From Symbiodinium sp. CCMP2592 (Eukaryota > Sar > Dinophyceae > Suessiales > Symbiodiniaceae), in assembly GCA_905221615.1 (NCBI GenBank), contig CAJNDT010002857.1:1-64000 (forward strand): 64,000 nt of DNA, written 5' to 3'. A program made the translations under genes and the position numbers. Below the pieces are notes generated by a model. The model did no database searches. It was not told the DNA's origin and worked only from the letters and a program-made list of their open reading frames with translations. Within the stretch, counting starts at the first letter, position 1; each line of letters begins with the position of its first letter. This document shows positions 16,595 through 36,305 of the stretch, one piece after another.

Positions 16595-18972
16595 TCAGAG
16601 GAACTGGCCGCCAGCAGCCAGGGGAGTGCCAGCGTCGCTTTCAGTGGCCGCCTCATTGCCAGGAGGCGGGTCAGCTGCACCATCTCCGGGAGCCCGTTCA
16701 CGAGGGCGAAGGCCGTGACGACGGAGCTCACAGTGGAGAGCCTCATCAGAAGCAGCAGAGGCCTGGATGGCACGAAGTTCCCAGGCCCTGGCAGCATCAC
16801 GGCGCTGCCACCAAGCCTCCATGGCGCCGCCAGAGAACCTTCGAAGTCGGCACTCTCCAGCGGCCTCGTCAGCTGAAGCGGTGAGCCTGTGGAGAAAGTC
16901 TCCACAGAGACCAGGAGGGGCTTGCCATCCTGGCCGCTTCCCGTGACTTGGGACCCACACACAAGAGACAGCCACTCCACGACCACGGAGTACACGTAGA
17001 GAAGCCTGGACGGAGTCAACAAGCTTCAAGTAGTAGCTGAAGTTGGCGCCAGTCTGCAGCACCAGGGAGAGGGCCGACTGGCAGTCGAGAACAAAGACGA
17101 CACGGCGAGCCCACAAGGAGCGCGCCACCGCTTGAACTACGGCCCTCGCCGCAAAGTCGAAACCAAGAAGCTCTTGCTTGAAAGGCGACTGGTCTTCTTC
17201 GGCCGTGCCCAAAGCGCACACAAAGTCACCCGGGTGCACGGCAACGGCAAAGGTGCCCACGTTCTTGTCCTCAGAGCCGTCGGTCGCAACGAAGAGCACC
17301 GCAGGGTCAGCAGAGAGCTGTGTCTCCAAGGCCTCGGCGAGTTCGTCAAAGCACTCCTGCGGGGCAACGGCCGGCGGGGGCGGAGGTTGTTCGGGGATTC
17401 CACGAAGAAGGAGTCTTTCTTCGCACCGGTCAACAGGCAACTGCAGGCCCTCTCGAAGAGCAGCAGTTTTCTCGCAGTTCCAAAGAAGGTGGGCCCTGGA
17501 AGGAGCCCGAAGGCCACACAGGCAGCGCCACCGATCGTGATTTGCATCGAAGTTGCCCCCGGCATTGAAATGCCAACACGAGCCACCCGCGCCCATGGCC
17601 GAGAGAGTCACTCTGCGAAGGCCCATGTCGAGCGCGGTGTGGAGGCCATCAAAGTGGTAGTCCTGATGCCGGCTAGGCGCTGGCAGGTCTAGTCCAACAG
17701 CGAGGCCTTCTTCATCGCGGTGGAGCCGGCGCTGGACCCGGCCAGTGCGGGCGACGTAAAGCTGCCGGAAGTGCTGCTTAGCAACTCGAAAACCGTCAAT
17801 GCCCGGTCGGATAGTGCGAATCCGTCCGGACCGATCAGTCCTGCTCACCTCAGTCGAAGCAAGGTCCACCTTCCATTTAAGCTTCCGAAGAACTTCAGGG
17901 AGCTCAGGCAGCATGGTCCTCCAGCGAAAGCGAGCTTCACTCAAGGCGACAGTGTCACGCCAGCGAGGCTGCTGGATGCTGGCCTTCCAGAGAATGCGCA
18001 GAGCACCGAGATCACACGCAAAGTCCGGTTGCAGGTCCCAGCCAAGCGCCTCGTAGAGGCACACCCTAGCAAAGCCAGCCGTGAAGCCCTGATTGAAAAC
18101 ATTCTCAATTTCGGCCTTGATGGCACTCAGGTCGTCGCTGTCACACCTCGCAAAGCCCGAGGCCCACGCAAAGGGCGGGACCACCAGAGAAGCCAGCAGG
18201 AGCTTTTGGTGTGTAGAATTCCTCGTGCACCAACCCAAGAGCCTAGCACGAAGGATGGCCTTTCGAGCATGGTATTTCAGAAGCGTCCACTCGCCCTGAA
18301 ACTTAGCCCGGACACCAAGGATCTCGAGGTCGGGCATCACCTGGAAGTCAAACTCAGCAGCGAGAGCCCGGTGCTCAGGACCAAGAGTCGGAGCCACAAC
18401 GGAGCATTTCTCAATCGAAAGACGCAGGCCAAAAGCACGATCGTAGGAAGTGGACCTGGCCATGGCGTCCCGAAGAGAATCAAGCGAGGCACCAGCCTTG
18501 GCCCAGACCGTGCGGTCATCAATGTAAGCCAAAGCACCGAGGGAGCGCGAAGAGTTGCCGATCACATACTTAGACCAAAGGTACGAAAGCAGGGCCGCAA
18601 TGACCGGAGAGAGCGGACAGCCCTGCGCAATCCCAGAAGAAACACCGCTCCAGGAAGAGTTGAGGGAGCCCGACAAGGAAAAGACTCTCTCGGCCCCGCT
18701 GTAAAAGTCGGTCAACACAGCAAGCACGGGCTGAGGGAAGCGCATGTGGGCCAAAGCCCGATGCAAAGCCTCCATGTGGATGCTGTCGAAATAGCTCTTG
18801 ATATCGGTCTGGATGAAAGCCACAGCCCCATCGGTCATAGCCTTGCGAATCTGCATGAGGGCCGCCTGGACACTGGTTCCAGGAAGGCCTCCAGCAGCAG
18901 TGTGGTCCGCCCAGGTGTCGATCCAGGGACCAAGTTGGGCCTGGATGACCCTGGTGCCAGCTCTCCAAATTT
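16595..18972 (-). pseudogene. LINE reverse transcriptase (palm/thumb) plus RNase H domain
   Basis: This is the main open frame of the LINE; the long Met-initiated part starts at 18856 (753 residues) but is internal to RT. Motifs in order are FIQTDIKSYFDSIH (motif A), SGIAQGCPLSP (motif B), the catalytic ALAYIDDR (YIDD rather than the usual YADD), LRLSIEKCSVV, then a C-terminal Cys/His motif CLCGLRAPSRAHLLWNC. RNase H follows, with FVATDGSED, KQELLGFDFAARAV, VFVLDCQSAL and VPSHGK, giving the D-E-D-H set. Upstream residues (IWRAGTRVIQAQLGPW) are reached only by a one-base frame change near 18972 that also meets a TAA. The copy is therefore broken at the fingers/palm boundary. Confidence 0.85.
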
Positions 18973-23244: not shown

Positions 23245-23768
23245 GCGGCGGATGCGAAGCCGAATGTTGTCTTCTGTGTCGACGACGAGAAGCAGGACGA
23301 CAAGAAGGACGACAAGAAGAACTACGAGAAGAACGACGAGGAGAACGACGGCAAGACGACGACAGAGAATGACACGGAGGCGACCGAGAAGGAGGAGCGA
23401 CCAAAGCCAAGTAAGAGGAAGCCGAAGCCGACGAAGGCGGACGAGAAGGACGAGCAGCCGAAGCCAAAGAAACGGAAGCCGAAGCAGGCGGACGAGAAGG
23501 ACGAGCAGCCGCACAAGAAGGAGAAGCCGAAGCCGACCAAGGCGGACGAGAAGGACAAGCAGCCGCAAAAGAAGGAGAAGCCGAAGAAGACGAAGCCGGA
23601 CGAGAAGGACGAGCAGCCGCAACAGAAGGAGAACCCGAAGATCGTCGAAGAGGTCAGCTGGTCCAACCTGCACGAGAAGGCCATGTGCAATGGTGAGATG
23701 TCTTCGAGTCCGTATGTGGAGGGCGGCGAGGTCATGGTACGCTTCGAAAGCGGGCGAGTTTGGCGAGT
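23245..23768 (+). CDS. Lys/Asp/Glu/Pro-rich repeat protein, exon(s), possibly split by the inverted-repeat segment
   Basis: An exon appears to open after CCAG at 23244 and reads AADAKPNVVFCVDDEKQDD, then four to five copies of a 15-16 residue unit of the type ADEKDEQPKPKKRKPK (about 23.42-23.64 kb). It ends with a non-repetitive part (VEEVSWSNLHEKAMCNG ... GGEVMVRFES). The charged repeat suggests a disordered nucleic-acid-binding or scaffold protein. The frame meets the left inverted repeat at about 23769. With a GC-type donor after GAAA (about 23749), it could join in phase to the exon after 35546 (PHLVPDDIEKRGEQD), which would make the 11.8-kb segment an intron or an insertion. No Met start was found. 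Function is unknown. Confidence 0.5.
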
Positions 23769-24030
23769 TCTTTGGTGGGTTTTGCTGTTCCGTACTTATA
23801 TGTCGAGTTATATGTCGGTCATGTGCAATTATAAATCATGCAAGGGCATTTATAAGTAGTGTATTGACATAGCAAGTGAGTTGTAAGTCCATACAGAGTT
23901 ATATTTGCCTTATAACTAATTGAAGGAGTTAAGGCTCCACTTATACGTCCCAGTCAAGTCCTCGCTAAGTAGTTATAAGTGGGAGTTATAAGTCCGCCGT
24001 AAGTCCACTCGCTGGGAGTTATAACTCCGA
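23768..24030 (+). repeat. Left inverted repeat of the 23.77-35.55 kb segment
   Basis: It begins CTTTGGTGGGTTT at about 23770 and ends GTTATAACTCCGA at about 24030. The reverse complement of 35405-35546 carries the same two blocks in the same order, and in between both arms have GTCGAGTTAT and repeated ACTTATAAGT-type words. The left arm is about 260 bp and the right arm about 142 bp, so they are diverged and of unequal length. Confidence 0.6.
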
Positions 24031-24046
24031 CGCCCCCGCAACGCTA

Positions 24047-24303
24047 TTTCCCGAAAATTGTATCCGTGGGCCAAAAATTGAACCGCCCAAACAAAAAAAA
24101 AACGTCGCCTGAAGTCCGAAATCCAACCCACCCAAAACAAAAAAACAACGAGCCTCAAGTCGAAAATTTAACCGCACCAAAACCAAACAAAACGTCGCCT
24201 GAAGTCGAAAATTGAACTCCCTCAAACCTAAAAAAATTAGCCTCAAGTCGAAAATTAATTCACCCAAACTCAAAAAAACGCATACCTGAAGTCGAAAATT
24301 TGA
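24047..24303. repeat. Degenerate 40-60 bp tandem repeat
   Basis: Units contain AAGTCGAAAATT followed by an A/C-rich stretch and CGTCGCCTGAAGTC or GAGCCTCAAGTC. About five copies are seen. T-poor on the plus strand. Confidence 0.7.
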
Positions 24304-24461
24304 CACTTGTAAGTTGCAAAAACATGCCAGCTGAGTGCCAAAATCTGCCAGCCCAAGAACCAAACGATGCTACCCGAAACCGGGCCCTTGACCCCAAACC
24401 CCAAGCCGTCTTAACCTCAAACCCGAACTCCAAATCCGCTGTGAACGTGGCTCTAAATGAA

Positions 24462-24512
24462 TGCATGGAGGCATCGCCCCGTGCATCTTGTGCAGGAGGC
24501 TTCGCCCCTGCA
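24462..24512 (+). repeat. Two GGC(T/A)TCGCC hairpins upstream of the 24674 gene
   Basis: Hairpin 1 (24462-24485): arms TGCATGG and CCGTGCA (one G-T pair) around AGGCATCGCC. Hairpin 2 (24491-24512): arms TGCAGG and CCTGCA, perfect, around AGGCTTCGCC. The arms differ but the apex is the shared element. Confidence 0.75.
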
Positions 24513-24673
24513 TGCACTGCATGGGCATAGCAGCACGCATGACACAGCAGACAGACACACACGAAGCCAGATGCACTGCAGACAGACACATGTGCAAGCC
24601 CATGGCATATATAGAACATGCAGGCAAGTTCCTGAAACCTCAGCAGCGGCACAGCTGCTTCGTTGCGGTCGCC

Positions 24674-25540
24674 ATGGACAAGCTCCCGGCGAAGTCCGCG
24701 GCGAAGGGAAAAGGAAAAGGAAAGGACCCTGAAGAGAAGGGAAAGGGAAAAGGAGAAGGAAAGGACCCTGAAGAGAAGGGAAAGGGAAAAGGAGAAGGAA
24801 AGGACCCTGAAGAGAAGGGAAAGGGAAAAGGAAAAGGAAAGTACGTCAAAGAGGAGGATCCCTCAGAGAAGGGAAAAGGAAAAGGGGAAGGCCTCCAAGA
24901 GGAGGTGCAAGCAGAAGGGAAAGGAAAGGGAAAAGGAAAGGAGGAGGAGGGGCCCGAGGGGCCCATCGTAGACGAGGTCTACGATGGGCCCTACGAGGTC
25001 ATTGCGGGGAAACTTGATTGAGATTTTGGGTGCCACGGGCATGCGGGTCTCGCTTCGCTTGAGGAACTCGTGGCAGGGACGAGCCATGGTCGTGACCGGC
25101 CCCAAAAGCGGTCACTTGCCGGAGGCTTTGTCTATGGCTTGGCGGTACAGAGAAGCCTCAGCCAAGGCAAGGCCCGTTCCAGCGGCCAGCACCAGGCCAG
25201 CCACGGCACCCTGGGCTCAGGCCTTCCCCCAGCGTGGCAGGCCCCGCCGTTCCCCTCCTTCCCGGCCCAGCCTGGTTTTTTGGGGCAAGGCTTCCTCGGG
25301 CCGCCGCCTTTGGTGCCAGGACTCCCTGATCCCTGGCTGGAGGCCGCTCACCGCGCGGAAGCTGCAGCGGCCAGGTCGGAAAAAGCGGCCTTTCAAGCAG
25401 AAGCAGCCTTGCAGGCAATGCACAAGCTGCAGCTGCGGCCGCCGCCGCCAAAGGCCCGGAGCAGCTCCTCCGACGAGGCCGGGCCTAACACGCATGCAAG
25501 TTGTAATCACACATGGCTTCGCCTGTGTGATTACAAGTAA
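24674..25540 (+). CDS. KGKGKG-repeat protein with Pro-rich tail, frame disrupted
   Basis: The ATG at 24674 reads MDKLPAKSAAKGKGKGK, then three near-identical copies of a DPEEKGKGKGEGK-type unit and an acidic end (EEEGPEGPIVDEVYDG), with TGA at 25019-25021. The same frame resumes after the stop and carries a Pro-rich segment (LPPAWQAPPFPSFPAQPGF) and a helix (AAHRAEAAAARSEKAAFQAE) up to TAA at 25538. Between them another frame looks more protein-like (NSWQGRAMVVTGPKSGHLP). The gene therefore has at least two frame changes or unrecognised introns. Basic KGKG proteins are common in dinoflagellates; the function is unknown. Confidence 0.45.
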
Positions 25541-25583
25541 ATGTGCAGAAGCACCTGTGGCTTCGCCCTTGGGCTTCTGCACA
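25501..25583 (+). repeat. Two strong GGCTTCGCC hairpins at the end of the 24674 gene
   Basis: Hairpin at 25501-25536: 13-bp perfect arms TTGTAATCACACA / TGTGTGATTACAA. Hairpin at 25542-25583: 11-bp perfect arms TGTGCAGAAGC / GCTTCTGCACA with a short inner stem. Both have GGCTTCGCC at the tip (25515-25523 and 25559-25567). Confidence 0.9.
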
Positions 25584-25708
25584 AGGGTACACACATATAT
25601 ATATATATGTATACATACAAATTTATATATACATCTTTACTCTTCCTTTATACATATATCTTTATATAGAGACATAGATACGCCTCAAATCCTGCCAACA
25701 ACCGACAG

Positions 25709-26718
25709 GGGAGCTCCGGCAGCTCGGAAAGCCCCGCTGCTCCTGCCGCTGTCGAAGTGAAGCCGGCGCCGAAGGCCAAACCATAAACCCCTAAACCCTA
25801 CACTCTAAACCGTGGGTTCAACCAGGCTCAACCAAAACCCCCCTATATATAATAATCCTAAACCCTAAAACCCTGAAGGTCGGCTCACACTCGTCGGAGA
25901 GCTCAGAAGCTGAGGAAGCCCCGCCGGGCAACGTGCAGGTGAAAAAGGAGGCAGAGGAGGAACAGGAGGCCGGGCCCTAAACCTTAAATCCAATATTCCA
26001 TCCTTAAACCCAGAAGGTGGCCAAAGCCGCACCTGCGGGGCAAGATCAACCGATGAAAGACGAGGAGGCCCGTTTTTATAAGCCCTAAACTTATAAAATA
26101 TAATTAGGGAGAAACCCTGAACCCCAAAAAAGCCTAAGCCCTGACAACATGCAGGTGGACTACGAGGAAACACCGGTGCTGCCGCAGGAGCAGCACCTCT
26201 CTCCCACGTCGGAGGCTGGCCCCGACAGTGAAGCGGATGAGGAGCCTCCCGTGCCCGATGGCGACACCAAGGTGGAAAAGGCAGCGGACGTGGTGCTTCC
26301 CGCCGCCACTCTGGAACCAGGGGCCACCCCTCCGCAGACCCTATGTCGGCACGTAGACTGGATGTGGAATACGTCACTGAAAGCCACACTGCGTGTGTCA
26401 GGGTCGCCCTGGCTGAAAGCCAGACGGCAGAGGAGTTCCTCGGAGAGGTCCGCCGACGGGCCGGGGCACCTTCCCTGGCCATGCTGTCGGTGTGGCCCGA
26501 CGGACCCACGCTGAGTCTCAAAGACTGTTTGGCCGAGCAACTCCGGCCTGAGGAAAACAAGTTGCTCGCCCAGCCTGAAAAAAAGGCCGACAAAGAGGCG
26601 ATAAAGCAGGACGAGGAGGACTTGCCCTTACCGGGCATAGAGTCCAAGAGCAAGGGCCCTTCGCCTTCGTATCCTCGTAGCTGGCCTGCCCCACCTCTCA
26701 AGAAACCGAGGGAAGGCT
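25709..26718 (+). CDS. Acidic protein with CCCTAAA-rich GC-AG introns; C-terminal part possibly ubiquitin-like in fold
   Basis: Exons 25709-25774 (GSSGSSESPAAPAAV), 25879-25968 (VGSHSSESSEAEEAPPG), 26017-26067 (VAKAAPAGQDQPMKDEE) and 26155 onward (VDYEETPVLPQEQHLSP) join in one phase. Each earlier exon ends AAG or GAG before GCC, and each next exon starts AG|GT, so the introns are 104, 49 (approx.) and 87 bp, of GC-AG type. All contain CCCTAAA-like words with in-frame stops. Near 26340 the coding sense moves to another frame (RLDVEYVTESH ... RVALAESQTAEEFLGEV ... AMLSVWPDGPTLSLKD), whose beta-strand/helix pattern loosely recalls ubiquitin-like domains. This frame ends PPLKKPREG, stop at 26718. 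The start codon was not found. Function is unknown. Confidence 0.5.
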
Positions 26719-26762
26719 AGAGAGCGTGAGTCTGCAGGCAAGAGACCTGGAGCAGCTCTATA

Positions 26763-26780
26763 GGCGAGGCTTCGCCCGCC
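26763..26780 (+). repeat. Short GGCTTCGCC hairpin downstream of the 25709 gene
   Basis: Arms GGCG / CGCC around A-GGCTTCGCC (core 26768-26776), about 45 nt after the stop at 26718. Confidence 0.55.
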
Positions 26781-27108
26781 CGCATGTGCATGCACGCAGC
26801 ACGCCATGCATGCACAGCCATGGAAAACAGGGCTCAACTTTTTATGCACGCATGCATGCCACACATCTGCATGTTCTGTGTGAGCGAGGAATTGGTGATT
26901 CGATGTTTTGAGCTCTTATCGGCTCGTATACAGTTGAAGCAGACAAAAGCAGAAACCCTTTTGCACAGTGCCCGCCTGAAACCCTAAACCCTAAACCCTT
27001 AAACGATAGACGCTGAACCCTAAAACGTGTAGATGTATCTATATACAAATATGCATACAGATTAAAAACTCAGATCCTTTGCGAGATATGTTAGGAACAA
27101 GCCTGCTT

Positions 27109-27159
27109 GGTCAAGGCCTTGCCTGACCATTTCTGTGGATGTCAAGGCTCGCCTGACAT
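27109..27159 (+). repeat. Two hairpins with GGC-loop-GCC tips upstream of the 27195 ORF
   Basis: 27109-27128: arms GGTCA / TGACC around AGGCCTTGCC. 27139-27159: arms ATGTCA / TGACAT around AGGCTCGCC (loop one base shorter). The second ends 36 nt before the ATG at 27195. Confidence 0.75.
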
Positions 27160-27194
27160 GAGCACATTTGCCATGGATGCTGCTGTAGCGAATT

Positions 27195-27797
27195 ATGGCG
27201 CTGAAGCGCCCCTTGCAGGCTGAGACGCCGAGGAAGAAGCTGCCAAGGGCGATTTCCTTCTCTACGCTTGCAGACCTGCAGGAAAAAGGGAACAATCTTG
27301 ATCATCAAAGGAAGGTCATTCGTGAAGGCCTCCGCAGACCGCTGGAGGAGGACGGGCCATGTGGCAGAGTGCTGGATTCTTTAACTGTGCCACTCGATGG
27401 TGAGCCATGGCAGTGGCACATTTTGCGGCCAGCTGCTTTGCTGCACAGACTGTGCAGCATCAACAGAAACTTCGGCGACCTCGTGGCCGTCTGTGAAAAC
27501 GTGGTGGTATACGCAGACGAGATTGTGCCAGGAAATGTGCTGAGGCCTGATAAAGGTCGAGAGCAGCTCTGCTTCTATTGGACTCTGAAAGAGCTACCGA
27601 CCTGGTTTGTCGGCAGAGACCAAGGCCAGGGATGCTTAAAATACGCGGATCGGGATTGCTGCTGTCGCTTGTTTTTCGATCGAAGCCTTATACCCCAGAA
27701 GCCCTCAAATGTAAAACCTAAACCGTTTTTGATTTATGATTATACATGCTTGCCGCTGCCATATATATATATATATATATATACACAGCAAGCTTAA
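27195..27797 (+). CDS. Dinoflagellate dispersed-family protein, N-terminal part (transposase-like origin possible)
   Basis: The ATG at 27195 is followed by ALKRPLQAETPRKKLPRAIS, then VLDSLTVPLDGEPWQWH and VVVYADEIVPGNVLRPDKG with CFYWTLKELPTWFVGRDQ. I recall this D-E-x-x-P-G-N-x-L segment from large dispersed protein families of Symbiodiniaceae, but cannot name the family. The conserved part stops near 27620 and the frame then runs into the TA microsatellite (YIYIYIY), so the copy is truncated or an exon ends there. A GGCGC-TGAA-GCGCC mini-hairpin lies at 27197-27210, overlapping the start codon. Confidence 0.45.
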   Translation: MALKRPLQAETPRKKLPRAISFSTLADLQEKGNNLDHQRKVIREGLRRPLEEDGPCGRVLDSLTVPLDGEPWQWHILRPAALLHRLCSINRNFGDLVAVCENVVVYADEIVPGNVLRPDKGREQLCFYWTLKELPTWFVGRDQGQGCLKYADRDCCCRLFFDRSLIPQKPSNVKPKPFLIYDYTCLPLPYIYIYIYTQQA

Positions 27798-27810
27798 AAG
27801 CTGGCCTTCC

Positions 27811-27866
27811 TCGAAGGCCTCGCCTCGATAGTTTTCTGTTGCTTCGAAGGCTTCGCCTCTTGAAGC
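27811..27866 (+). repeat. Two GGC(C/T)TCGCC hairpins; the second abuts the ATG at 27868
   Basis: 27811-27828: TCGA / TCGA around AGGCCTCGCC. 27841-27866: arms GCTTCGA / TTGAAGC (one G-T pair) around AGGCTTCGCCT. The second stem ends one base before the start codon at 27868. Confidence 0.7.
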
Positions 27867-27867
27867 G

Positions 27868-29067
27868 ATGGTGGCAGCGACGCAGGAGACACAGGCCGCG
27901 GACACGGTTGTGGAGCCGCAGCAGACCCAGGTGCCTGCAGGGGAACCACAGACCCAGCAGCCTGCAAGCCAGCAGGGGCCCGAGCCTTCGCCAGCTTCGG
28001 TGGCCAAGCAGGAGCCAGAGACCTCAGCCGATGCAACCTCTGCAGTTGACGGGCAACTGCAGGTGGTGCCTGGCGAGGCCGATCTGGGCTCTTTGCTGGT
28101 GCCGGCCGTGCATCCGATGGTCCCGACCAGCAAGCACCCCGTGCCGTTCATCTGCTGCACCTGTGGGCAGGAGTCGACGGAGTCCGTGACCTGTGCCAGG
28201 CACACGAAGGGTCAGCAGTCCCTTCGCTGCCGCAAGTGCCACAGCAGCAAAGCGGCTATAGCACGCTTAAGCCGGGCCCATGATGGGCTTGTGCAGGACT
28301 TTGGCAGGATCGACGATCGCGGAGCTGTGCAGAACTTTTTCAAAGAGTTTGGCCACCTCAGGGGGAGGGAGCTGATCGTCAAGCTCGAAGAAGCTGTCCA
28401 GAGCTGGACGACGGAGATCTCGAGGAACAGTTTCCAAGGCACGGGCGAGTTCCTCGACGATCATGATCTGTGGCTTCGCTACAAAGACAAGCCGAATGGT
28501 GTCGAGCAGTACGAAAATGTGAAAAAAACTGCAAGCAGATCTTTGACAGGGTAAGAGGAGTTACCCTCTTCGAGGACATGAAGTACAAGTCCTCCCACGA
28601 GGATGTGGTGGAGAAAGGCAAGAAGAGGCAAAGGTCAACCTCTTGCCACCAGGACCTGGCCGAGGAGGTGGAGGACGCGGCTGAAGAGAAGGCCGCTGAA
28701 AAGAAGGCGATCTTCAAGAAGAAGAAGGGCAAAGGCGGCGACAACTTGCAAGTTCAAGAAGGGTGATCGGAGCAAGATCAACAAAAAGATGGAGGCCGTC
28801 GCATCGCAGCGGATGCAGTGCTTGGACTTGCTGTCCAGGGCGGAAAAGTTCGAGGGCATGGTGCCGGCCTATGTCTGCGACGCCGGCAGGGCCTCCATCG
28901 CCCAGGCTTTGGCGGCCCAGGAGGAGGTGGAGAAGCTCTTGGACGAAGACCATGGTATCGTCAACGACGTTCTGGACCAGGCGGACAAGATTTTGAACAC
29001 CATCACCTCAGCCACCGCCCGGCTGAAGCTGCAGGTGGAGCAAGCGGCGGCCTTCAAATCCGTCTAG
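27868..29067 (+). CDS. Zinc-ribbon plus coiled-coil protein of unrecognised dinoflagellate family, two compensating frame changes
   Basis: The ATG at 27868 opens a Gln/Pro/Ala-rich N-terminus, then CCTCGQESTESVTCARHTKG and SLRCRKCHSSKAA, which look like a zinc-binding module (C-x2-C ... C-x2-C). Helical sequence follows to about 28520. At a run of seven A (28522-28528) the coding sense moves one base back (CKQIFDRVRGVTLFEDMKYK ... AEKKAIFKKKKGKGGD). Near 28745 it moves forward again (SKINKKMEAVASQRMQC ... LQVEQAAAFKSV), stop at 29067. The shifts cancel, so the original protein was probably about 400 residues. A related layout (disordered N-terminus, basic linker, helical C-terminus) is seen in the gene at 40089. 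Function is unknown. Confidence 0.5.
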
Positions 29068-29183
29068 ATCTTCTTTGCTTTTAGGGGCTGAGTCCATAAT
29101 AGGGTTAAAACGGGGCCCAAAAGTCTAAAGGTTGCTTATGTATACTCAGCCCCTAAGTTCCTTAGGGCGGGCAGAGATTTTGA

Positions 29184-29299
29184 TTCCTGGTGGTTTGCCC
29201 CCAGGAAGCTCGTCATGCCTGCGACGAGGCTTCGCCTCTGGAGTGATGTGTGTGCCAGGTGGCTTCGCCCCGGCACTTTATAATCAAGAGTTCATGACG
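29184..29299 (+). repeat. Cluster of three hairpins within a larger inverted repeat, downstream of the 27868 gene
   Basis: 29184-29207: TTCCTGG / CCAGGAA around TGGTTTGCCC. 29226-29238: GAGGC-TTC-GCCTC. 29252-29276: GTGCC (plus GG) / (CC plus) GGCAC around GGCTTCGCC. An outer pair CGTCATG (29211-29217) / CATGACG (29293-29299) encloses the last two. Confidence 0.7.
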
Positions 29300-30396
29300 C
29301 ATGCAATCGGGGCGCAAAAAAGGTCCCTTTCAGATGGGTTGAGATGTCCCTTTGAGGGCTTGTGTCTTGTGTATGTATAAAATAAGCCTAAACGTGACGA
29401 TAAGCCCTGTGTATATACATGTAGACAATCCAAACACAAACTTTCTGTATATATCTATATACATATGTACCATGGGGCTGGGGGGGTTAAAAACCCTAAA
29501 CCTTATGGATGTTTCTATTGCATGACACAGAAATCACCCTAAGAACAAAAATCCAAACAAACAACACATGATAACACAAGAATCAACACAAAAAACAAAA
29601 ATAAACAATAAAAAGAAAAAATCAAATTGCAAAATAAAAAAGGAAAGAGAAACATAAAATTAAGAACAAAATCAAAAGCAAAAAACAATCCAAAACAAAA
29701 TGAAACCAACAAAAAGTAAAACAAAAAGTTAAAAAATAAAATAATCCAAAAATAAAAATACAGACATAAAACCAAATTAGAAAAACAAAACAAAAAATAA
29801 AACAAAAACAAAAAATAAAATACAAAAAAAAACGGACAAATAAAATTAAAAAATATATATATAAAATGAAAAGATATAAAAAATGAAAAATATAACGAAA
29901 AAACGAAAAAATAAAAAAACGAAAAACAAAAAAAATGAAAAAATGAAAAAAAAACAAAAAAAAAGGGGTCGCGGCGTGTCGCGGGCGTGTCGCGGGCCGC
30001 GGGCGTGTCGCGGGGATTGGCCCCCAATCCCCAACCAACCCCGGTCCTGCAGTCCCAAAACCCTGGTTCAGGTCGCAGCCCATGCCCAACCCCACCCAAT
30101 CCTACCCCATTCCCAACCCAGTCCAAGCCCCAAAACACGCCAGGTCACAGCCCATACCCAACCCCCCAACCCCCCCAAACCCCCTTCCCATCCACCCCCT
30201 CACCACCACCCCCTTTCCCCTGCGGCAGCTTCGAAATACAACCATCAATTCCCACGCCCACCCAAAAGAATCTATTGCATTCACTGCATCCCAACCCCAA
30301 ACCCATAACCCTGAGCCCTGCCAATGTAAGAATAACACGTTGCTTTCAGTTTGCCTGCAATCCGACAGTGTTTGTGGCTCGCAAAGGTTTTGGAAC
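29300..30396. other. Non-coding: A-rich block followed by C-rich block
   Basis: 29540-29965 is extremely T-poor on the plus strand (A with scattered C, runs such as AAAACAAAAAATAAA). At 29970-30015 CGTGTCGCGGG recurs three times. 30020-30310 is C-rich (runs of CCC and CCAACCC). Long frames here are low-complexity artefacts. TA-rich and CCCTAAA-like words fill 29380-29520. Confidence 0.7.
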
Positions 30397-30412
30397 GGAA
30401 GGCTTTGCCTCC
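30397..30412 (+). repeat. GGCTTTGCC hairpin six bases before the ATG at 30419
   Basis: GG-A-AGGC-TTT-GCCT-CC; six pairs with one bulged A. Confidence 0.55.
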
Positions 30413-30418
30413 TGAAAG

Positions 30419-30886
30419 ATGGCGGGGCCAGGCGCAAGCTCCGAGTTTCCGGCTGCGGCTGTGGAGGTGGAAGAGCCAACAGCTGTGGCTGTGGGGCCAG
30501 CTGTGCCTGTGGAGGTGACGGGGCCAGCTCCGAAGCCAGCTGCGAAGCCAAGTCCGACCAAACGCAAAAGGGAGGCAGACTCAGACGACGGGGAAAGCCT
30601 CAGGGTGGCCCTGCGGCGCTTGGACAACTTCTCCGCACAGGATGCCTCCTGCAGCTCCACCGAAACAGAAGATGACGTGGTGCCACCCGGACCGCTGCAG
30701 CTGTTGCACATGATCGAGAACTTGAGCTGCGAGATGGACTACATGAAGTCCAAATCGCGATGTCAGACGGAGTGCTTGCAGCGCCAAGTCGACTTCCTCA
30801 AGAACGCGTTGAAAGAGCTGTCTACCAGCATGACCAATTTTGCCCAGATCAATTGCGATATGGTCCAGGCCATGTTGGGCAGCTGA
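30419..30886 (+). CDS. Short Pro/Ala-rich protein with C-terminal coiled coil
   Basis: An intact ORF of 155 residues between hairpins. The N-terminus is Ala/Val/Pro-rich (VEVEEPTAVAVGPAVPVEV), followed by a nuclear-localisation-like TKRKREADSDDGES. The C-terminus is heptad-like (LQRQVDFLKNALKELSTSM) and ends AMLGS. The acidic-basic-coiled-coil layout suggests a small nuclear or assembly protein; I do not recognise the family. There are no introns, and the frame is clean, unlike its neighbours. Confidence 0.5.
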   Translation: MAGPGASSEFPAAAVEVEEPTAVAVGPAVPVEVTGPAPKPAAKPSPTKRKREADSDDGESLRVALRRLDNFSAQDASCSSTETEDDVVPPGPLQLLHMIENLSCEMDYMKSKSRCQTECLQRQVDFLKNALKELSTSMTNFAQINCDMVQAMLGS

Positions 30887-30912
30887 AGGGCTCAGCGGCT
30901 TAGCCCGTGTGG

Positions 30913-30931
30913 TGCAGAGGCTTCGCCCTGG
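30913..30931 (+). repeat. GGCTTCGCC hairpin after the 30419 gene
   Basis: CAG-A-GGCTTCGCC-CTG (core 30919-30927), 29 nt after the stop codon. Only three flanking pairs, so the weakest of the set. Confidence 0.4.
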
Positions 30932-31665
30932 AAGGGCACGTCTTTTGGAGAAAAAAAAGCTTGGGTTCGGCACGCTTTTGGCAGCACGACTTCATGATAT
31001 ATAGAGAGGCACTATGTAATAAGTAATATTGCTGTTGCTGCTGCTATATAGTACTAGTAACAAGTACTAGTGCTCGTACTACTACTCCTACTCCTACTCC
31101 TACTTTTGCTACTGCTAGTGCTGCTACGACAGCAACAACAACCACAACAGCAACAACAACAACAACTACTACTACTACTACTACCTTTACTACTACTACA
31201 TATAACTAGAACTATAGAACGACAACTACTACTTTTTGAATGTTAAACGTTGAATTATACATATATATATATATAGAACTGCTATACTTTGCTGCTAATG
31301 TGTGTGTATATATATATATGCCATATAAATATGTGCAAGCATAACCCGAAAAGCTTTAAACCCTTGACTCCTTGACTGAGTCACAAAAAACCGTGAGGAT
31401 TAAAATCAGTAGCCCCCAAGCCCTATATAAACCGTGAACACTTGTCCTTTATATATCCATGTGTATAACACCCAAAGGCCTCAACCCTGAAAGCCTTGTC
31501 TTATATCTATGTATACAACCCCCCGAAGCCCTAAATCTAAAAACTTGGGTTTCTTCTCATGTGCAGAGTGGCATCGGCGTTTCTCCTCAAGCTCCTTTGC
31601 CTGAGGCTCGCCCTGGCTCCCGTGTGCCCGAGGCATAGACCCGGGCTTTCTTTTCAGAGGCGGGC
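30932..31665. other. Non-coding: trinucleotide and TA microsatellites, CCCTAAA-like words
   Basis: TAC/CTA/ACA trinucleotide runs at about 31075-31200 and TA runs near 31260-31320. A weak hairpin, CCTCA...TGAGG with AGCTCCTTTGCC between (31585-31606), lies upstream of the next ORF and may be a decayed member of the hairpin set. Confidence 0.6.
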
Positions 31666-32322
31666 ATGGCGGGCATGCACATGCTCGTTGTGCACCGCCT
31701 TGAGCGCCGCCTTCGCCTCTTGGACATCAACCAGTTGGTTGATGGCCTGGACCGTCTGCATGGGGCGGGATACCAGGTCATAGACCTGGGGCATTCCGCT
31801 TTTCATGCGGATGAGCTCCGCCCATGCCCGCGATGCCCACGGTTCGGGCTTGGCCACAAGATCGCGGCGGCGACGCTCCGGCTGGCAGTGCCTGGTTGGT
31901 TGGCGAGGACAATCCCTTCCAACGAAGAGAAGGCCCACAAGGTGTATGAAGCAATGGTTGCTTTCACCTGGGTCGCGGAGGGATATGTCATGCAAGGATT
32001 CAGCGAACACAACTCGCGGATTCTTCTTGCCATGTCCCGCGACCTCTCGGAGCTGCCGTATCTGCCACCTTTGGCTTGGACACTCGAAGGCTTGGTGGAG
32101 AAGCTGACACCGCTGCAACCTCCGGTCCCTCCAGCCCTGGTGCTTTTTGCAGCTCCTGCAGAAGCCGAACGGGTTCCAGAGTTAAGCCCAGAACCCGCAC
32201 TGCAGGACCAAGGGCAGGAGGACCAAGGGCCGGAAGAGCCCGCAAACCCAGCAGCTGCTCTGCAGGACCAAGGCCTGCAGCACCAAGGGCCGCAAGAGCT
32301 TTTCCTCAACGAGCTGGACTGA
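31666..32322 (+). CDS. ORF with QDQG repeats at its C-terminus, unrecognised
   Basis: The ATG at 31666 gives 218 residues. The N-terminal part (LERRLRLLDINQLVDGLDRL) and centre (EEKAHKVYEAMVAFTWVAEG) look protein-like. The end repeats ALQDQGQEDQGPEEP and ALQDQGLQHQGPQE. There is no known domain. It is followed within 15-40 nt by two hairpins. Long antisense frames exist, but the hairpin orientation and the neighbours favour the plus strand. Confidence 0.4.
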   Translation: MAGMHMLVVHRLERRLRLLDINQLVDGLDRLHGAGYQVIDLGHSAFHADELRPCPRCPRFGLGHKIAAATLRLAVPGWLARTIPSNEEKAHKVYEAMVAFTWVAEGYVMQGFSEHNSRILLAMSRDLSELPYLPPLAWTLEGLVEKLTPLQPPVPPALVLFAAPAEAERVPELSPEPALQDQGQEDQGPEEPANPAAALQDQGLQHQGPQELFLNELD

Positions 32323-32336
32323 GCAGGCTACGGGTT

Positions 32337-32393
32337 TGCAAGGCTCTGCCTGCAGTAGTTTGGCATGCTGCAAGGCTTCGCCTGCAGCATGCC
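32337..32393 (+). repeat. Two GGCT(C/T)(T/C)GCC hairpins after the 31666 gene
   Basis: 32337-32354: TGCA / TGCA around AGGCTCTGCC. 32362-32393: perfect 11-bp arms GGCATGCTGCA / TGCAGCATGCC around A-GGCTTCGCC (core 32374-32382). This second one is among the strongest hairpins of the set. Confidence 0.85.
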
Positions 32394-32520
32394 CGGAATA
32401 GGAATCTGCGTAGAGCCAGATCCCAGAAATCGGACCCTTAATGGGTTCCAGTTAATGCAAGACAAAGTCTTGCATACAAATCGCGGCAGCACTGCAGAAA
32501 CTGGTTTCGCAGTTGATGGT

Positions 32521-33198
32521 TGAAGCCTTGGACACTGTAGCCTCTGTAGACAGGCATGTGGTTATGCTGAAAAAATGCAAAGCGCAACCGGTTGCACTAT
32601 GTATTTTGCTACGAAATCAATAGCTTAGAGACACATTGACTTTTCCCAGGTAATTTGTTGAAGCCTTGGACACTGTAGCCTCTGTAGACAGACATGTGGT
32701 TATGCTGAAAAAATGCAAAGCGCAACCGGTTGCACTATGTATTTTGCTACGAAATCAATAGCTTAGAGACACATTGACTTTTCCCAGGTAATTTGTTGAA
32801 GCCTTGGACACTGTAGCCTCTGTAGACAGGCATGTGGTTATGCTGAAAAAATGCAAAGCGCAACCGGTTGCACTATGTATTTTGCTACGAAATCAATAGC
32901 TTAGAGACACATTGACTTTTCCCAGGTAATTTGTTGAAGCCTTGGACACTGTAGCCTCTGTAGACAGGCATGTGGTTATGCTGAAAAAATGCAAAGCGCA
33001 ACCGGTTGCACTATGTATTTTGCTACGAAATCAATAGCTTAGAGACACATTGACTTTTCCCAGGTAATTTGTTGAAGCCTTGGACACTGTATGTAGACAG
33101 TTATGCTGAAAAAATGCAAAGCGCAACCGGTTGCACTATGTATTTTGCTACGAAATCAATAGCTTAGAGATACATTGACTTTTCCCAGGTAATTTGTT
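32521..33198. repeat. 138-bp tandem repeat, four full copies plus a shortened fifth
   Basis: TGAAGCCTTGGACACTG recurs at 32521, 32659, 32797, 32935 and 33073, exactly 138 bp apart and almost identical. The fifth copy lacks about 12 bp. Each unit contains the palindrome GCAACCGGTTGC and ends TTTTCCCAGGTAATTTG, which looks like joined acceptor and donor splice sites. It is followed by a CAG run. Confidence 0.97.
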
Positions 33199-33313
33199 GC
33201 TTCTGCTGCACCAGCAGCAGCAGCAGCAACCAATGTCATGCATAAACTATAATTGTCAGGAAGCCACAGCATGGTGTGATGCAACCGTTGGCTCAAAGTG
33301 GGGTTTTGCTCTC

Positions 33314-33340
33314 GCTGCATGAAGGCATCGCCTCATCAGC
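33314..33340 (+). repeat. GGCATCGCC hairpin 20 bases before the ATG at 33361
   Basis: GCTG-(C)-ATGA / TCAT-CAGC, eight pairs with one bulged C, around AGGCATCGCC. Confidence 0.8.
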
Positions 33341-33360
33341 CGTGGATCGGTGCTCCATCC

Positions 33361-34840
33361 ATGGCCGAAAAGCATGTGCGAGACATGCTGGAGTTGCTGG
33401 AGTTTGTGGCGATGCTCCGGAAATCGCCTGGCATGGACGAGGGCCGTGCAGAGAAGATAGAAAAGAAACTGCTGCAGCAGCTGGAGGAGCTGCCTGGAGC
33501 GGTGAGCTTTCAAGAAGCCACACGTGCCATGGAGAAGGTGTCCGCGGCAGATGTGCCGGATGGCTTTAAGCAGGACATCGTGCGATGTTTGGAGGAGAAA
33601 ATCGAGGCGACGGGTTCCGCCGAGAGTTCCGCCACCACGCGGGAGCTCAAGGGCAACCAAAAGATGCAACAGCATCGTTTTTTCTACAACTTCCTGGTGC
33701 AAGCGGAGTGGGATGCCATCATGAACACGAGAGCCTCCGCGAGGAGCAAGCAAAGGGTGGTGGCCAACAGGCTACAGCTCCTGGGCTTGGTCTATCCGAG
33801 GGAGGCAATCTTCAAGCAGGCCACTGCCATCTTGCTGCTTGGCAGCCACTATGGTCCTCCGGAGCATCTGAATGTGAATTTTGTTACGGCCTTAGACCTG
33901 CTGCAGGAGCTGAAGGACCTGTGCAGGTCTTCGTTCGACAAGTCCAAGTTCAGTGGACTGAAGGACTACCCGGAGAGTGCGAGAGATCTCCCGAGTGATA
34001 TCTTCAGGGCGGCCTACGGGGAACAAGCGCCGGCAGCTTGTCCCATGGACTTGCCGGCCTTGCACGGGCTTACCCAAGCCCTTGCTGCGAGGAGCACGCA
34101 CAACAGTGTGCAGCAAAAGGGCTTTGGGCAGCAGCTCGGCAAAAAGGACAGGTGCCTTCAGGAGAACATGCACGGTGCCCTGTTAGGGCACCTTGGCAAC
34201 CTTTTGATGAATGCCATGGAAGGGAACGGCGTCCCTGGCCTGCGAAATTTCGCTATGACGAAGAAGCGGAAGATGTTGGAGGACGGAGAAGCCTCCGTGC
34301 CGCTTCAGCTCCAGCTCCCAAGCAAGAAGCTGGCTTTGAAAGACAAGGAGGAGGTGGCGGAGAAGGACGAGGAACAGCAAGCAGAGGACTTGGAGGAGGA
34401 CGTACAGGAGCATGAAGAGGCTTCGCCCTTCAAAAAAACGCCTGCCGAGCCTAAGAAGGCCCGGCGCAGTGTCGACGAGATGGTCTCCAAACTCCAGGAC
34501 CAGCTCGCGGCCAACCAAGCCGTCGAAGCCGGCGAAGGGCACACCTGCCAAAACAAAGCCTGCCGGAGGAAAGGGCGCAGGCCAGGCAGCTGCAGCTGCA
34601 GCCCAGGGGAAAGGCAAAGGCAAGGGCAAGGGCAAGAAGGTGCTGACAGCTTTGCCCAAGTACCCGGGCACGGCAAAGAAGCCGCCGGTGTGGTTGCAGA
34701 CCTGCAAGATCTACACGGATACGACCACGAATGCGTGGAGGGTCCAGATCTGGGGCGACAAGAAGGACAAATCGTTCAAGTTTTCGGACAACCCAAAAGC
34801 TTCTTGGCAGCGGCTCAGCGCCTACGCAAGCGAGCTCTAG
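33361..34840 (+). CDS. Helical protein with KGKGKGK linker and small C-terminal domain; one frame change
   Basis: From the ATG at 33361 about 390 residues are open: MAEKHVRDMLELLEFV, EEKIEATGSAESS, HRFFYNFLVQAEWDAIM, then an acidic/basic stretch (KDKEEVAEKDEEQQAED). Near 34500-34525 the coding sense moves one base (KPAKGTPAKTKPAGGKG, KGKGKGKGKKV). The protein then ends with a compact domain, KIYTDTTTNAWRVQIWGDK and SWQRLSAYASEL, stop at 34838-34840. A similar 'basic linker then WRV...aromatic' ending is, to my knowledge, common in Symbiodiniaceae proteins, but its function is unknown to me. Hairpins lie before, inside and directly after the gene. Confidence 0.55.
34413..34432 (+). repeat. GGCTTCGCC hairpin inside the coding sequence
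   Basis: TGAAG / CTTCA around A-GGCTTCGCC (core 34419-34427). It is read in frame as Glu-Glu-Ala-Ser-Pro-Phe in the 33361 gene. Confidence 0.65.
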
Positions 34841-34864
34841 ATGTCAGTGGCCTCGCCCTGCATC
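34840..34864 (+). repeat. GGCCTCGCC hairpin starting on the stop codon of the 33361 gene
   Basis: GATG-(T)-CAG / CTG-CATC around T-GGCCTCGCC. The left arm begins with the last base of the TAG. Confidence 0.7.
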
Positions 34865-35404
34865 TTGCATGTAGGTCTACCGGCGGCCTCTCCCTGTGCG
34901 TGCGCTTCCGCATTTGGCAGTGGCTTCGCTCGGCATTCTTTAAAGAGCATGTGCGACGGGGAACGGCACGCAGAAGAAAAAAGATTGTAGCACGGAGTTG
35001 GTTTAACCCCCAGCCCTAAATGCATGTTCAACCCTGTACATAATCTGTTACAGGCTTTCCCTGCGTGGCCCTTTGGATTTTGGCATTCTGAACCCTGTTT
35101 TTTTCACCTCTACATAATTTTTTGGACCGCCGCAATACCTCAAAATGCTTTTCTCGTGATGAATTTTTGCACCCCTCATGATCGCAAAATGGTGCTCGCC
35201 AAACGCATTTTCTGACCACCTATATACCTCAAAATGGTTTTCTCGTGACGAGTTTTTGCGACCCTCATGATCCCAAAATGGTGCTCACCAAACCCATTTT
35301 CTGACCGCCTATATACCTCAAAATGATCTTCTCGTAACGAGTTTTTGCACCCCTCATGATCGCAAAATGGTGCTCGCTAAACCCCGAAATGTGTGCTCGC
35401 TAAA
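34865..35404. repeat. Non-coding with an 89-bp tandem repeat (three copies)
   Basis: ACCTCAAAATG begins units at about 35137, 35226 and 35315. Each unit continues TTTTCTCGTGACGAGTTTT-like and CTCATGATCGCAAAATGG-like sequence. Copies differ by several substitutions. Confidence 0.85.
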
Positions 35405-35546
35405 TCCCCAATTTCGGAGTTATAAGTCACTTACAAGTCCGACTTATAAGTCCACCAAAACTCCACTTATAAGTCCGAGATAACTCGACTTAACAAGTCC
35501 AGTATATCTCGAGTTTTAACTGACCAAAGCAAGAAACCCACCAAAG
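35405..35546 (-). repeat. Right inverted repeat of the 23.77-35.55 kb segment
   Basis: It reads TCGGAGTTATAA at the inner end and AAACCCACCAAAG at the outer end, the reverse complement of the left arm's terminal blocks. Internal ACTTATAAGTCC words are palindromic. Confidence 0.6.
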
Positions 35547-36305
35547 TTCCCCACCTGGTGCCAGACGACATCGAGAAGAGAGGCGAGCAGGATGCACTGC
35601 CGCGAGTGGGCGATGTGCCGGAGCAGCCGAAAAAAAAACCGAAGGCGGCTGCCAAAGCGAGGCCCGTGGCGGACTTCATCCTGCCGTCTGTGCGAGTGAA
35701 GTATGCCAGCCAGGGGTCGAAGTCACCGGTCCTCAAGCTGGAATGCAAAGAGGACCGCTTCGGTCCTTCGATGGGCCCATGGAGGCAGAAGCTGCAGTTC
35801 GTCTCGAAGGAGGACGCACCATTGGGAACGGTTGAGGCCTCCCACGTGATGCAGACAATGGCTCGTGCTACGAGAAGATGAATCTCAATGGTGCCGAAAT
35901 CGACTTCAGGCGATGCAGGGACAGCTTGCTGAAGCACGCCGACGCTGTGAACCACGACTGGGGGAAGAAGCCGATGTCTTGGGAGTATGTGAACCAGCAG
36001 AAGCTGGATGGCTTTCCGCTGGCGAGGCTTGGTCGCAGGGTATTGTTTTTGGTTTGGAGTTATTCGGCTATCGGTTTGGGGTTTGTAATATATTCAGGTT
36101 TTGGGACCGAGCAGCGATAAGGCCTTCGCAGCGGGCCGGAGCAGCCGCCAAGGAGGATGACGAGGACGACGGCGAGGAGGACGGCGAAGAGGAGGAAGAG
36201 AATGCTATGGATCCGACAGTGGAAGGCTCCCTACCACGTGATCATAATCGTAGCAATTTAAGTAATCTAGGTACAGACTGGAATATACTAAACCGCAAGC
36301 CCTGA
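35547..36305 (+). CDS. Short basic/acidic protein exons, unrecognised; possible 3' part of the 23245 gene
   Basis: An open frame after the right inverted repeat reads PHLVPDDIEKRGEQDALPR, KKKPKAAAKARPVADFIL and SPVLKLECKEDRFGPSM. Near 35850 the sense moves one base (CYEKMNLNGAEIDFRRC, HDWGKKPMSWEYVNQQ) until about 36035. After an apparent intron ending CAG near 36095, an acidic tail follows (AAAKEDDEDDGEEDGEE). It resembles the charged style of 23245-23768 and could be its continuation. No ATG is seen at the left end. Confidence 0.4.

Follow-up and report, generated by a model that had tools for sequence, protein, structure and literature searches.

Hairpins of a common geometry, possible RNA operators, in a multi-gene DNA transposon of a dinoflagellate

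In the window under study, a stretch of 64,000 nucleotides from the dinoflagellate Symbiodinium sp. CCMP2592, a hairpin-rich segment is part of a multi-gene DNA transposon (23770-35546); the hairpins are real and occur far above chance, and what they share is a geometry more than the letters of GGCTTCGCC. On balance, we think that they are probably RNA operators built like that of phage MS2, whose hairpin is the translational operator of the replicase cistron (PMC4751978), with one protein reading them and coordinating the mRNAs of the element. A shape that stays the same while the sequence changes freely suggests RNA switches reserved for the genes of the element, and action at the level of RNA is supported by indirect evidence. 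The initial annotation of this DNA had described a 10-kb segment of genes, all of which are indeed on the plus strand, and had missed the transposon that contains it. The features are collected in Table 1.

Table 1. Features of the transposon copy in the window
Feature	Position	Strand	Description
DNA transposon copy with hairpin family	23770..35546	+	about 11.8 kb; ends are boundaries common to other copies
Target duplication TT, left	23768..23769	.	2 bp
Left terminal inverted repeat	23770..23782	+	13 bp; CTTTGGTGGGTTT
Hairpin	24461..24486	+	8-bp arms, one G-U; unpaired A; tip GGCATCGCC
Hairpin	24489..24514	+	unpaired A; tip GGCTTCGCC
Gene A region	24674..26719	+	exon structure by eye; ORF 24461-25021 covers its start
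Hairpin, perhaps intronic (by eye)	25502..25535	+	13-bp perfect arms; unpaired T; tip GGCTTCGCC
Hairpin (listed as 25542)	25546..25579	+	long interrupted arms; 1-2 inner pairs, long outer helix; unpaired T; tip GGCTTCGCC
Possible hairpin, exon-like stretch	26208..26226	+	tip GGCTGGCC
Hairpin 3' of gene A	26763..26780	+	4 bp; tip GGCTTCGCC
Hairpin 5' of gene B	27108..27129	+	6 bp; tip GGCCTTGCC
Hairpin 35 nt before gene B ATG	27139..27159	+	6 bp; 8-nt tip GGCTCGCC
Gene B	27195..27797	+	without Pfam match
Hairpin 5' of gene C	27811..27828	+	4 bp; tip GGCCTCGCC
Hairpin core 8 nt before gene C ATG	27846..27859	+	2 inner pairs; outer pairs extend further; tip GGCTTCGCC
Gene C, zinc-motif protein	27868..29067	+	frame broken twice here; unbroken in 34 other copies
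Hairpin	29184..29207	+	7 bp; unpaired T; tip variant GGTTTGCCC
Degenerate hairpin	29226..29238	+	1-2 inner pairs; tip GGCTTCGCC
Hairpin 3' of gene C	29258..29271	+	2 inner pairs; unpaired T; tip GGCTTCGCC
Hairpin 6 nt before gene D ATG	30397..30412	+	3 bp; tip GGCTTTGCC
Gene D	30419..30886	+	without Pfam match
Hairpin 3' of gene D	30915..30930	+	3 bp here; 5 bp in two other copies
Degenerate hairpin 5' of gene E	31599..31617	+	pairing better in C5287 copy
Gene E	31666..32322	+	without Pfam match
Hairpin 3' of gene E	32336..32355	+	tip GGCTCTGCC
Hairpin	32362..32393	+	11-bp perfect arms; tip GGCTTCGCC
Hairpin 24 nt before gene F ATG (33361)	33319..33336	+	4 bp; tip GGCATCGCC
Gene F	33361..34840	+	found in subfamilies examined; frame apparently shifted near 34515-34562 here (from alignment)
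Hairpin within gene F	34413..34432	+	5 bp; tip GGCTTCGCC
Hairpin directly 3' of gene F	34845..34860	+	3 bp; unpaired T; tip GGCCTCGCC
Right terminal inverted repeat	35534..35546	+	13 bp; AAACCCACCAAAG; 1 base changed in C2336 and C5287 copies
Target duplication TT, right	35547..35548	.	2 bp

Excess and geometry of the hairpins

Chance expectation was evaluated over positions 24401-34900 with 300 dinucleotide shuffles and by comparison with the minus strand and the rest of the window. The plus strand of this interval contains 10 exact copies of GGCTTCGCC, against a shuffle mean of 0.037 (never more than one), with none on its minus strand and none on either strand in the rest of the window. When a single unpaired base is placed 5' of GGC and none 3', nine of 28 GGCNNNGCC sites on the plus strand have at least four perfect pairs; the minus strand has 0 of 28, each strand elsewhere in the window has 0 of 26, and the shuffles average 0.037. 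Three alternative geometries tried on the plus-strand sites gave 0 of 28 each. An arm test assuming a symmetric tip gave no arms of note. The initial annotation was therefore right that the hairpins are real, that they have a single orientation in the segment (in the window copy, all of them that of the genes) and that two have perfect arms of 13 and 11 bp, and shuffles of the same composition, the check that it had proposed, do not reproduce the arm-matched sites. Searching the whole window against Rfam 15 on both strands returned 0 matches above the gathering threshold.

The common geometry begins with a complementary arm of free sequence. A single unpaired base, A or sometimes T, follows on the 5' side alone; then come a GGC/GCC clamp and a loop of 2 to 3 nt, mostly pyrimidine. 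The tip had been called invariant, which does not hold: GGC, GCC and the 5' unpaired A or T are its recurring parts, whereas the loop varies (TTC, ATC, CTC, CTT, TTT and TCT, or with 2 nt TT, TC, AT and TG), as does the tip of the site at 29184. Among the 19 sites originally listed, 12 have at least four contiguous inner pairs, G-U counted, and seven have fewer, namely those given as 30397, 30913 and 34840, with three pairs, and those given as 25542, 27841, 29226 and 29252, with one or two before a mismatch.

The unpaired base, mostly A and confined to the 5' side, had escaped the initial annotation. In the armed tips of four elements it is A in 31 cases and T in 4, never C or G, compared with A 19, T 15, C 10 and G 3 in their unarmed tips. 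A hairpin 5' of gene X in the C5287 copy has an unpaired G. The dinoflagellate m1A motif NNCA (PMC11549392) does not fit the purine-A context. RNA folding predicts the hairpins with their 5' unpaired A, and tips with a 2-nt loop fold as A, GG/CC and a 4-nt loop; in the single hairpin folded in both directions, the antisense RNA is as stable as the sense RNA. Interior mismatches include five G-U in the sense strand and no A-C, a small excess (two-sided p 0.0625).

Position relative to genes

Across five elements, a hairpin overlaps the start codon or ends at most 50 nt from it in 16 of 22 genes, a count that reached at most 10 of 22 under 20,000 random shifts; leaving aside the window copy, it is 12 of 16 genes, with random shifts giving at most 9. 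The remaining six of the 22, including both genes of C57, lack a start-proximal hairpin. The hairpin at 34413 lies inside a reading frame, and the degenerate one before the gene at 31666 was missing from the original list. Elsewhere, the elements L084 and L085 have one in-frame hairpin each, L083 has two (6308 and 8102), and a sister methyltransferase gene has one within a short GC-AG intron. The idea of an RNA element in untranslated regions, one of two put forward initially, is favoured by the plus orientation, the proximity to start codons, the sense G-U mismatches and the arms that change yet stay complementary; however, because of the intronic hairpin and the few in frames, the hairpins are not purely a feature of such regions.

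Sister elements and other sites in the genome

Sister elements with proteins about 30% identical show the same geometry with different arms, and at matching places in sister subfamilies the arms differ, yet are complementary, as in those before gene F in three subfamilies (ATGA/TCAT, GCAG/CTGC and GCAA/TTGC). Among 48 tips of three sister elements, 21 have at least three Watson-Crick pairs in the plus geometry and 1 in the minus, or 15 and 1 with at least four pairs, bearing in mind that each of these elements was known beforehand to carry at least one hairpin. A separate set of pair counts, over rows chosen for their pairing, is partly circular. Upstream of distant gene F relatives (about 25% identity), the geometry is present in 7 of 20 stretches and absent in 13; two 6-kb neighbourhoods of such relatives contain no tip with three pairs (among 7 and 4 tips), and no different common tip is visible in six of these relatives.

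The pattern WGGCNTCGCC occurs 27949 times in the genome, against 12966 for the reversed control (a 2.2-fold excess). Among the 100 places listed for this pattern, every other (A/T)GGCTTCGCC site, 36 in number, has arms of 0-2 bp, which argues against a genome-wide hairpin family of thousands. Given these sampled sites, the excess is probably compositional, and the hairpins therefore travel with the transposon.

Host element and its genes

The boundaries in common with other copies fall at 23765-23770 on the left and 35546/35547 on the right. The 2-bp target duplications match in 5 of 5 copies examined, being TA, TA, TA and TG in the others, so that the host element has the inverted ends and short target duplication of a TIR DNA transposon; subterminal TTATAAGT repeats are present besides. 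The 13-bp end could not serve by itself to count copies, as it occurs at 184 places and its reversed control at 288; the ends of the transposon rest instead on the shared boundaries and flanks. The 1.1-Gb dinoflagellate genome contains a further 26 full-length copies (96-99%) of gene F, the last of the element, together with about 10 partial ones. Gene content varies among copies of the transposon. Elements of the CACTA (EnSpm) superfamily have CACTA/CACTG termini, and membership by termini was rejected, the ends here being CTTTGG. Open reading frames of a fuller copy may resemble CACTA-like transposases; a Pfam scan of them gave no match. No relatives were found among viral contigs with gene F, gene C or the sister methyltransferase as query.

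The seven open reading frames of the segment gave no Pfam match above the cut-off. The zinc motifs of gene C, C-x2-C and C-x2-C-H, are kept in four subfamilies, and relatives of this gene were found on 5 of the 7 sampled contigs where gene F has a hairpin nearby, as against 0 of the 10 where it has none. At three further gene C relatives, one hairpin is clear, one has 3 bp and lies inside a broken stretch, and one relative has none. Structure prediction for gene F, made without an alignment, was poor (mean pLDDT 48, pTM 0.29), only residues 1 to about 84, mostly helical, being confident.

Proposed mechanism and alternatives

The putative operators would belong to a single clade of multi-gene DNA transposons. 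One protein would read each of the hairpins in the transcript; it would contact the unpaired A on the 5' side, the GGC/GCC clamp and the small loop, and would need the arms only as a helix, by analogy with the MS2 coat protein and its operator. Most likely the element itself encodes this reader, because the motif stands before, after and sometimes within the element's genes and is unarmed wherever the commonest tip was sampled in the genome (36 copies). Among the candidates, the zinc-motif protein of gene C would come first, and the likely effect of the reader would be to coordinate the mRNAs of the element, at translation start in the first place. A bolder version, to which we give only some credence, is an RNA regulon run by the transposon, in which the gene C protein alone recognizes bulged-A, GGC/GCC-clamped hairpins at the starts, ends and introns of many genes, a system similar to the MS2 operator that evolved independently in a eukaryotic transposon and was kept while the arms were rewritten. 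If the operator reading is true, the element would be a small natural example of structure maintained without constraint on sequence. It would also supply a candidate for a new mode of recognition between an RNA and a protein, and a way into the study of post-transcriptional control in dinoflagellates.

The reader could instead be an RNA-binding protein or RNA-silencing factor of the host, which changes nothing else in the explanation; we consider this rather unlikely, since the lack of an armed copy at those 36 sites means that no host regulon is seen. We would give a similarly low probability to hairpins as RNA-processing signals that mark cleavage, polyadenylation or spliced-leader acceptor sites and cut a long transcript into single-gene mRNAs. 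Their placement 5' and 3' of many genes in one direction would suit such signals, as would the 429 copies of the dinoflagellate spliced-leader sequence in the host genome and the polyadenylation of mimivirus transcripts at hairpins without sequence conservation (PMC4402537), but the hairpins here have a common tip, are in some cases intronic or inside frames, and adjoin or overlap start codons, so that cleavage there would take away the leader or interrupt it.

Action on DNA, with cruciforms or folded single strands bound by an element protein for transposition, replication or gene shuffling, appears quite improbable: the clustering at start codons and the sense G-U pattern would be unexpected, and the element already has its own inverted ends and subterminal repeats, even though a strand-specific DNA hairpin would fit the single orientation and copies differ in gene content, with some of the breaks in similarity falling near hairpins as judged by eye. 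The other initial proposal, a mobile micro-palindrome that inserts, copies neighbouring sequence into its arms and by chance piled up in the element, would account for a common tip with arms different at each site, yet it is very improbable, given the near-uniform orientation, the 36 of 36 other 10-mer copies with arms of 0-2 bp, and the lack of hairpins in 13 of the 20 stretches that precede gene F relatives, as well as in the two 6-kb neighbourhoods.

Comparison with known systems

Integron attC sites are folded, strand-specific hairpins between genes in which structure prevails over sequence, with constant core boxes and a variable tip. Here the arrangement is reversed, with a shared tip and variable arms, and Pfam scans of the open reading frames gave no match to an integrase family. 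The decay elements of Roquin and the Smaug recognition elements have stems of free sequence, without a 5' unpaired A or a GGC/GCC clamp, and act on cellular mRNAs, the decay elements being located in 3' UTRs. The hairpins of the transposon resemble them as small-loop stem-loops that one protein would read in many mRNAs, with the unpaired A and the clamp in addition. In the Roquin and Smaug systems, such stem-loops let one protein act on many mRNAs (PMC11609897). Mimivirus transcripts follow a hairpin rule, terminating at hairpins without sequence conservation (PMC4402537). The present hairpins likewise have free sequence and stand beside the genes of a large element; unlike those of the mimivirus, they have a common tip and cluster at start codons. 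Dinoflagellate introners and MITEs are small inverted-repeat elements (PMC7789003) and are dispersed. Unlike these, none of the 36 sampled genomic sites outside the transposons has arms of at least 3 bp.

We know of no DNA transposon in which a hairpin operator recurs at the majority of the genes, and literature searches, judged by titles and abstracts, gave no example. The MS2 operator has a lower stem, a 5' unpaired A, a short G-C upper stem and a small loop, and lies at a start codon. The hairpins described here show the same parts in the same order, with T in place of the unpaired A in 4 of 35 armed tips, and are adjacent to the start codon in 16 of 22 genes, with other hairpins elsewhere; they differ from the phage operator in their many copies per element, their GGC..GCC tip and their location in a eukaryotic DNA transposon.

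Oriented hairpins in the window element

The hairpins constitute an oriented family which conserves its shape, is tied to a group of related mobile elements and is enriched at start codons. Each consists of a free arm, an unpaired 5' A (sometimes T), GGC, a loop of 2 or 3 nt, GCC, and the complementary arm. Their existence, proposed in the initial annotation, was confirmed by direct inspection of the window: exact GGCTTCGCC occurs 10 times on the plus strand of the hairpin-rich segment (24401-34900), compared with a mean of 0.037 over 300 dinucleotide shuffles, and is found neither on the minus strand of the segment nor in the remaining window. The tip, described there as invariant, is not so; GGCTTCGCC is among the commonest but only one of several. 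Arm pairing follows a single geometry, with one unpaired base 5' of GGC and none after GCC. In this geometry, at least 4 perfect pairs are formed at 9 of the 28 plus-strand GGCNNNGCC sites of the segment, at 0 of 28 on the minus strand, and at 0 of 26 on each strand elsewhere in the window, while three alternative geometries gave none with at least 4 perfect pairs at the plus-strand GGCNNNGCC sites. When both 2-nt and 3-nt loops were considered over the whole element, at least 3 pairs were present in 14/34 tips on the plus strand and 0/34 on the minus strand; outside the element, the corresponding window counts were 2/48 and 1/48. Contiguous inner pairs number at least 4 in 12 of the 19 sites initially listed and fewer in the other 7.

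RNA folding of six stretches recovered the shape with its unpaired base, and 200 shuffles of each yielded equally good folds 6 and 3 times in two stretches and never in four. For the one stretch tested, the antisense folds about as stably as the sense strand. Rfam gave no match anywhere in the window.

The host element is a DNA transposon

The hairpin-rich segment lies within a DNA transposon that measures about 11.8 kb, as established by ends shared among copies (the right one sharp), a 13-bp terminal inverted repeat (one base altered at the right end in two copies), and 2-bp flanking duplications, which match in all five copies checked (TA, TA, TA, TG, and TT). The 13-mer end alone shows no genomic enrichment (184 places versus 288 for the reversed control). 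The 1.1-Gb genome, in which the window belongs to contig C2857, contains at least 26 other full-length copies of gene F with 96-99% identity, about ten partial copies, and many relatives with 24-30% identity, the copy counts being lower bounds. Gene content varies between copies. A fuller copy of the same subfamily, C5287, carries about 2 kb of additional sequence whose ORFs, unmatched in Pfam, we take to resemble CACTA-like transposases. Since the window copy lacks this stretch and the frames of gene C, and apparently of gene F, are broken, it is probably non-autonomous.

Coordinates of features (window positions unless a locus is named)
Feature	Position	Strand	Remarks
Transposon, window copy	23770-35546	+	Genes A to F
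Left end	23765-23770		Common to other copies
Right end	35546/35547		Common to copies, sharp
Deletion point	27655		Site of the additional sequence in C5287
Gene C	27868-29067	+	Zinc-motif protein
138-bp tandem repeat	32520-33190		Located between genes E and F; judging by alignments, the number of repeats probably varies among element copies
Gene F	33361-34840	+
Gene F, residues 1-84	33361-33612	+	Four predicted helices; only confidently predicted part
Reverse transcriptase (Pfam RVT_1)	16595-18856	-	Retroelement outside the transposon
Short inverted repeat, arm GATCTAGA	39529, 39659, 39789		Directly repeated, with three copies at 130-bp intervals
ORFs	44432-46384		No Pfam match; resemble a CACTA-like transposase
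Hairpin at gene C start	L083:1188-1205		Loop is the start codon (GGC-ATG-GCC)
C5 cytosine DNA methyltransferase (Pfam PF00145)	L083:5962-7398, L040:6488-7896		Carried by sister subfamilies of the transposon

In contig C4957 (locus L061), ORFs adjoin a shortened element copy beyond its end and are perhaps another mobile element. Symbiodinium C5 cytosine DNA methyltransferases are reported in retrotransposons (PMC5890265).

Conservation of shape in sister elements

Relatives were picked by protein similarity. For distant gene F relatives, 20 stretches (621-721 bases) around their starts were examined: 7, all from the group with 28-30% identity, contain the geometry, and the other 13 lack it. The arms preceding gene F are ATGA/TCAT in the window subfamily, GCAG/CTGC in a second, and GCAA/TTGC in a third, with the unpaired A and a distance of 24-46 nt to the ATG common to all three; in a fourth subfamily (C57), the closest standard hairpin is 351 nt from gene F. 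Three sister elements (L083, L084, and L085), each previously known to bear a hairpin near gene F and the latter two half N, have at least 3 pairs in 21 of 48 tips in the plus geometry versus 1 of 48 in the minus geometry. In these and the window element, the 35 armed tips (those with pairing arms) leave an A unpaired in 31 cases and a T in 4, and the base at this place in the unarmed ones is A in 19, T in 15, C in 10, and G in 3; a copy outside this count has an unpaired G. Mismatches within helices, read on the sense strand, comprise five G-U and no A-C (p = 0.0625); additional pair statistics concur but are partly circular.

Position relative to genes

With gene starts chosen by us from long reading frames, and with the window and C5287 elements representing one subfamily, 16 of 22 genes from five elements have a hairpin whose 3' end either overlaps the start codon or precedes it by at most 50 nt, against a mean of 1.7 and a maximum of 10 in 20,000 random circular shifts. 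Excluding the window copy leaves 12 of 16 genes (shift maximum, 9). In that copy, the distance is 35 nt for gene B, 8 nt for C, 6 nt for D, and 24 nt for F; gene A, at 159 nt, and gene E, whose hairpin is degenerate, were not counted as start-proximal. From stop codon to next hairpin there are 4-190 nt for genes B to F of the window copy, and from 12 nt up to several kb elsewhere. One hairpin lies within a GC-AG intron of a sister element's methyltransferase gene and a few lie inside reading frames, which we count against a simple positional rule.

Apparent restriction to the elements and a candidate reader

Armed hairpins are not genome-wide, judging by places taken from 100 listed WGGCNTCGCC matches, all on contigs C1 and C2 and thus a sample rather than a census. 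All 36 that are (A/T)GGCTTCGCC were fetched; the arms of 29 form no pair, those of 5 a single pair, and those of 2 two pairs, and at the 8 loci examined with other tips, no hairpin was found. The dinoflagellate spliced leader has 429 exact copies in the host genome (reversed control, 0), which makes the host a dinoflagellate.

A single protein would recognize the unpaired A, the clamp, and the loop in RNA, and the lack of arms at the host sites sampled suggests a reader encoded by the element. Gene C is the best candidate, keeping C-x2-C and C-x2-C-H across four hairpin-bearing subfamilies. Among the contigs sampled, seven have a hairpin near gene F, and gene C relatives were found on five of these (C2502, C57, C835, C5122, and C3335; none on C5151 and C1738); the 10 contigs lacking such a hairpin yielded no relative, a co-occurrence that shared ancestry could explain as well. 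Three further gene C relatives are mixed: one has a clear hairpin about 160 nt beyond the match, another none, and the third a 3-bp hairpin within a broken stretch.

Comparison with known systems

The literature reached by our search contained no description of this hairpin family. Since no defining partner of any known operator or decay hairpin was found for it, we do not file it among these, to which its likeness would be one of mode of working. Judged by the fine structure of the MS2 operator, its anatomy appears closer to that hairpin than to any other known to us. The MS2 hairpin is described as serving as an operator (PMC4751978).
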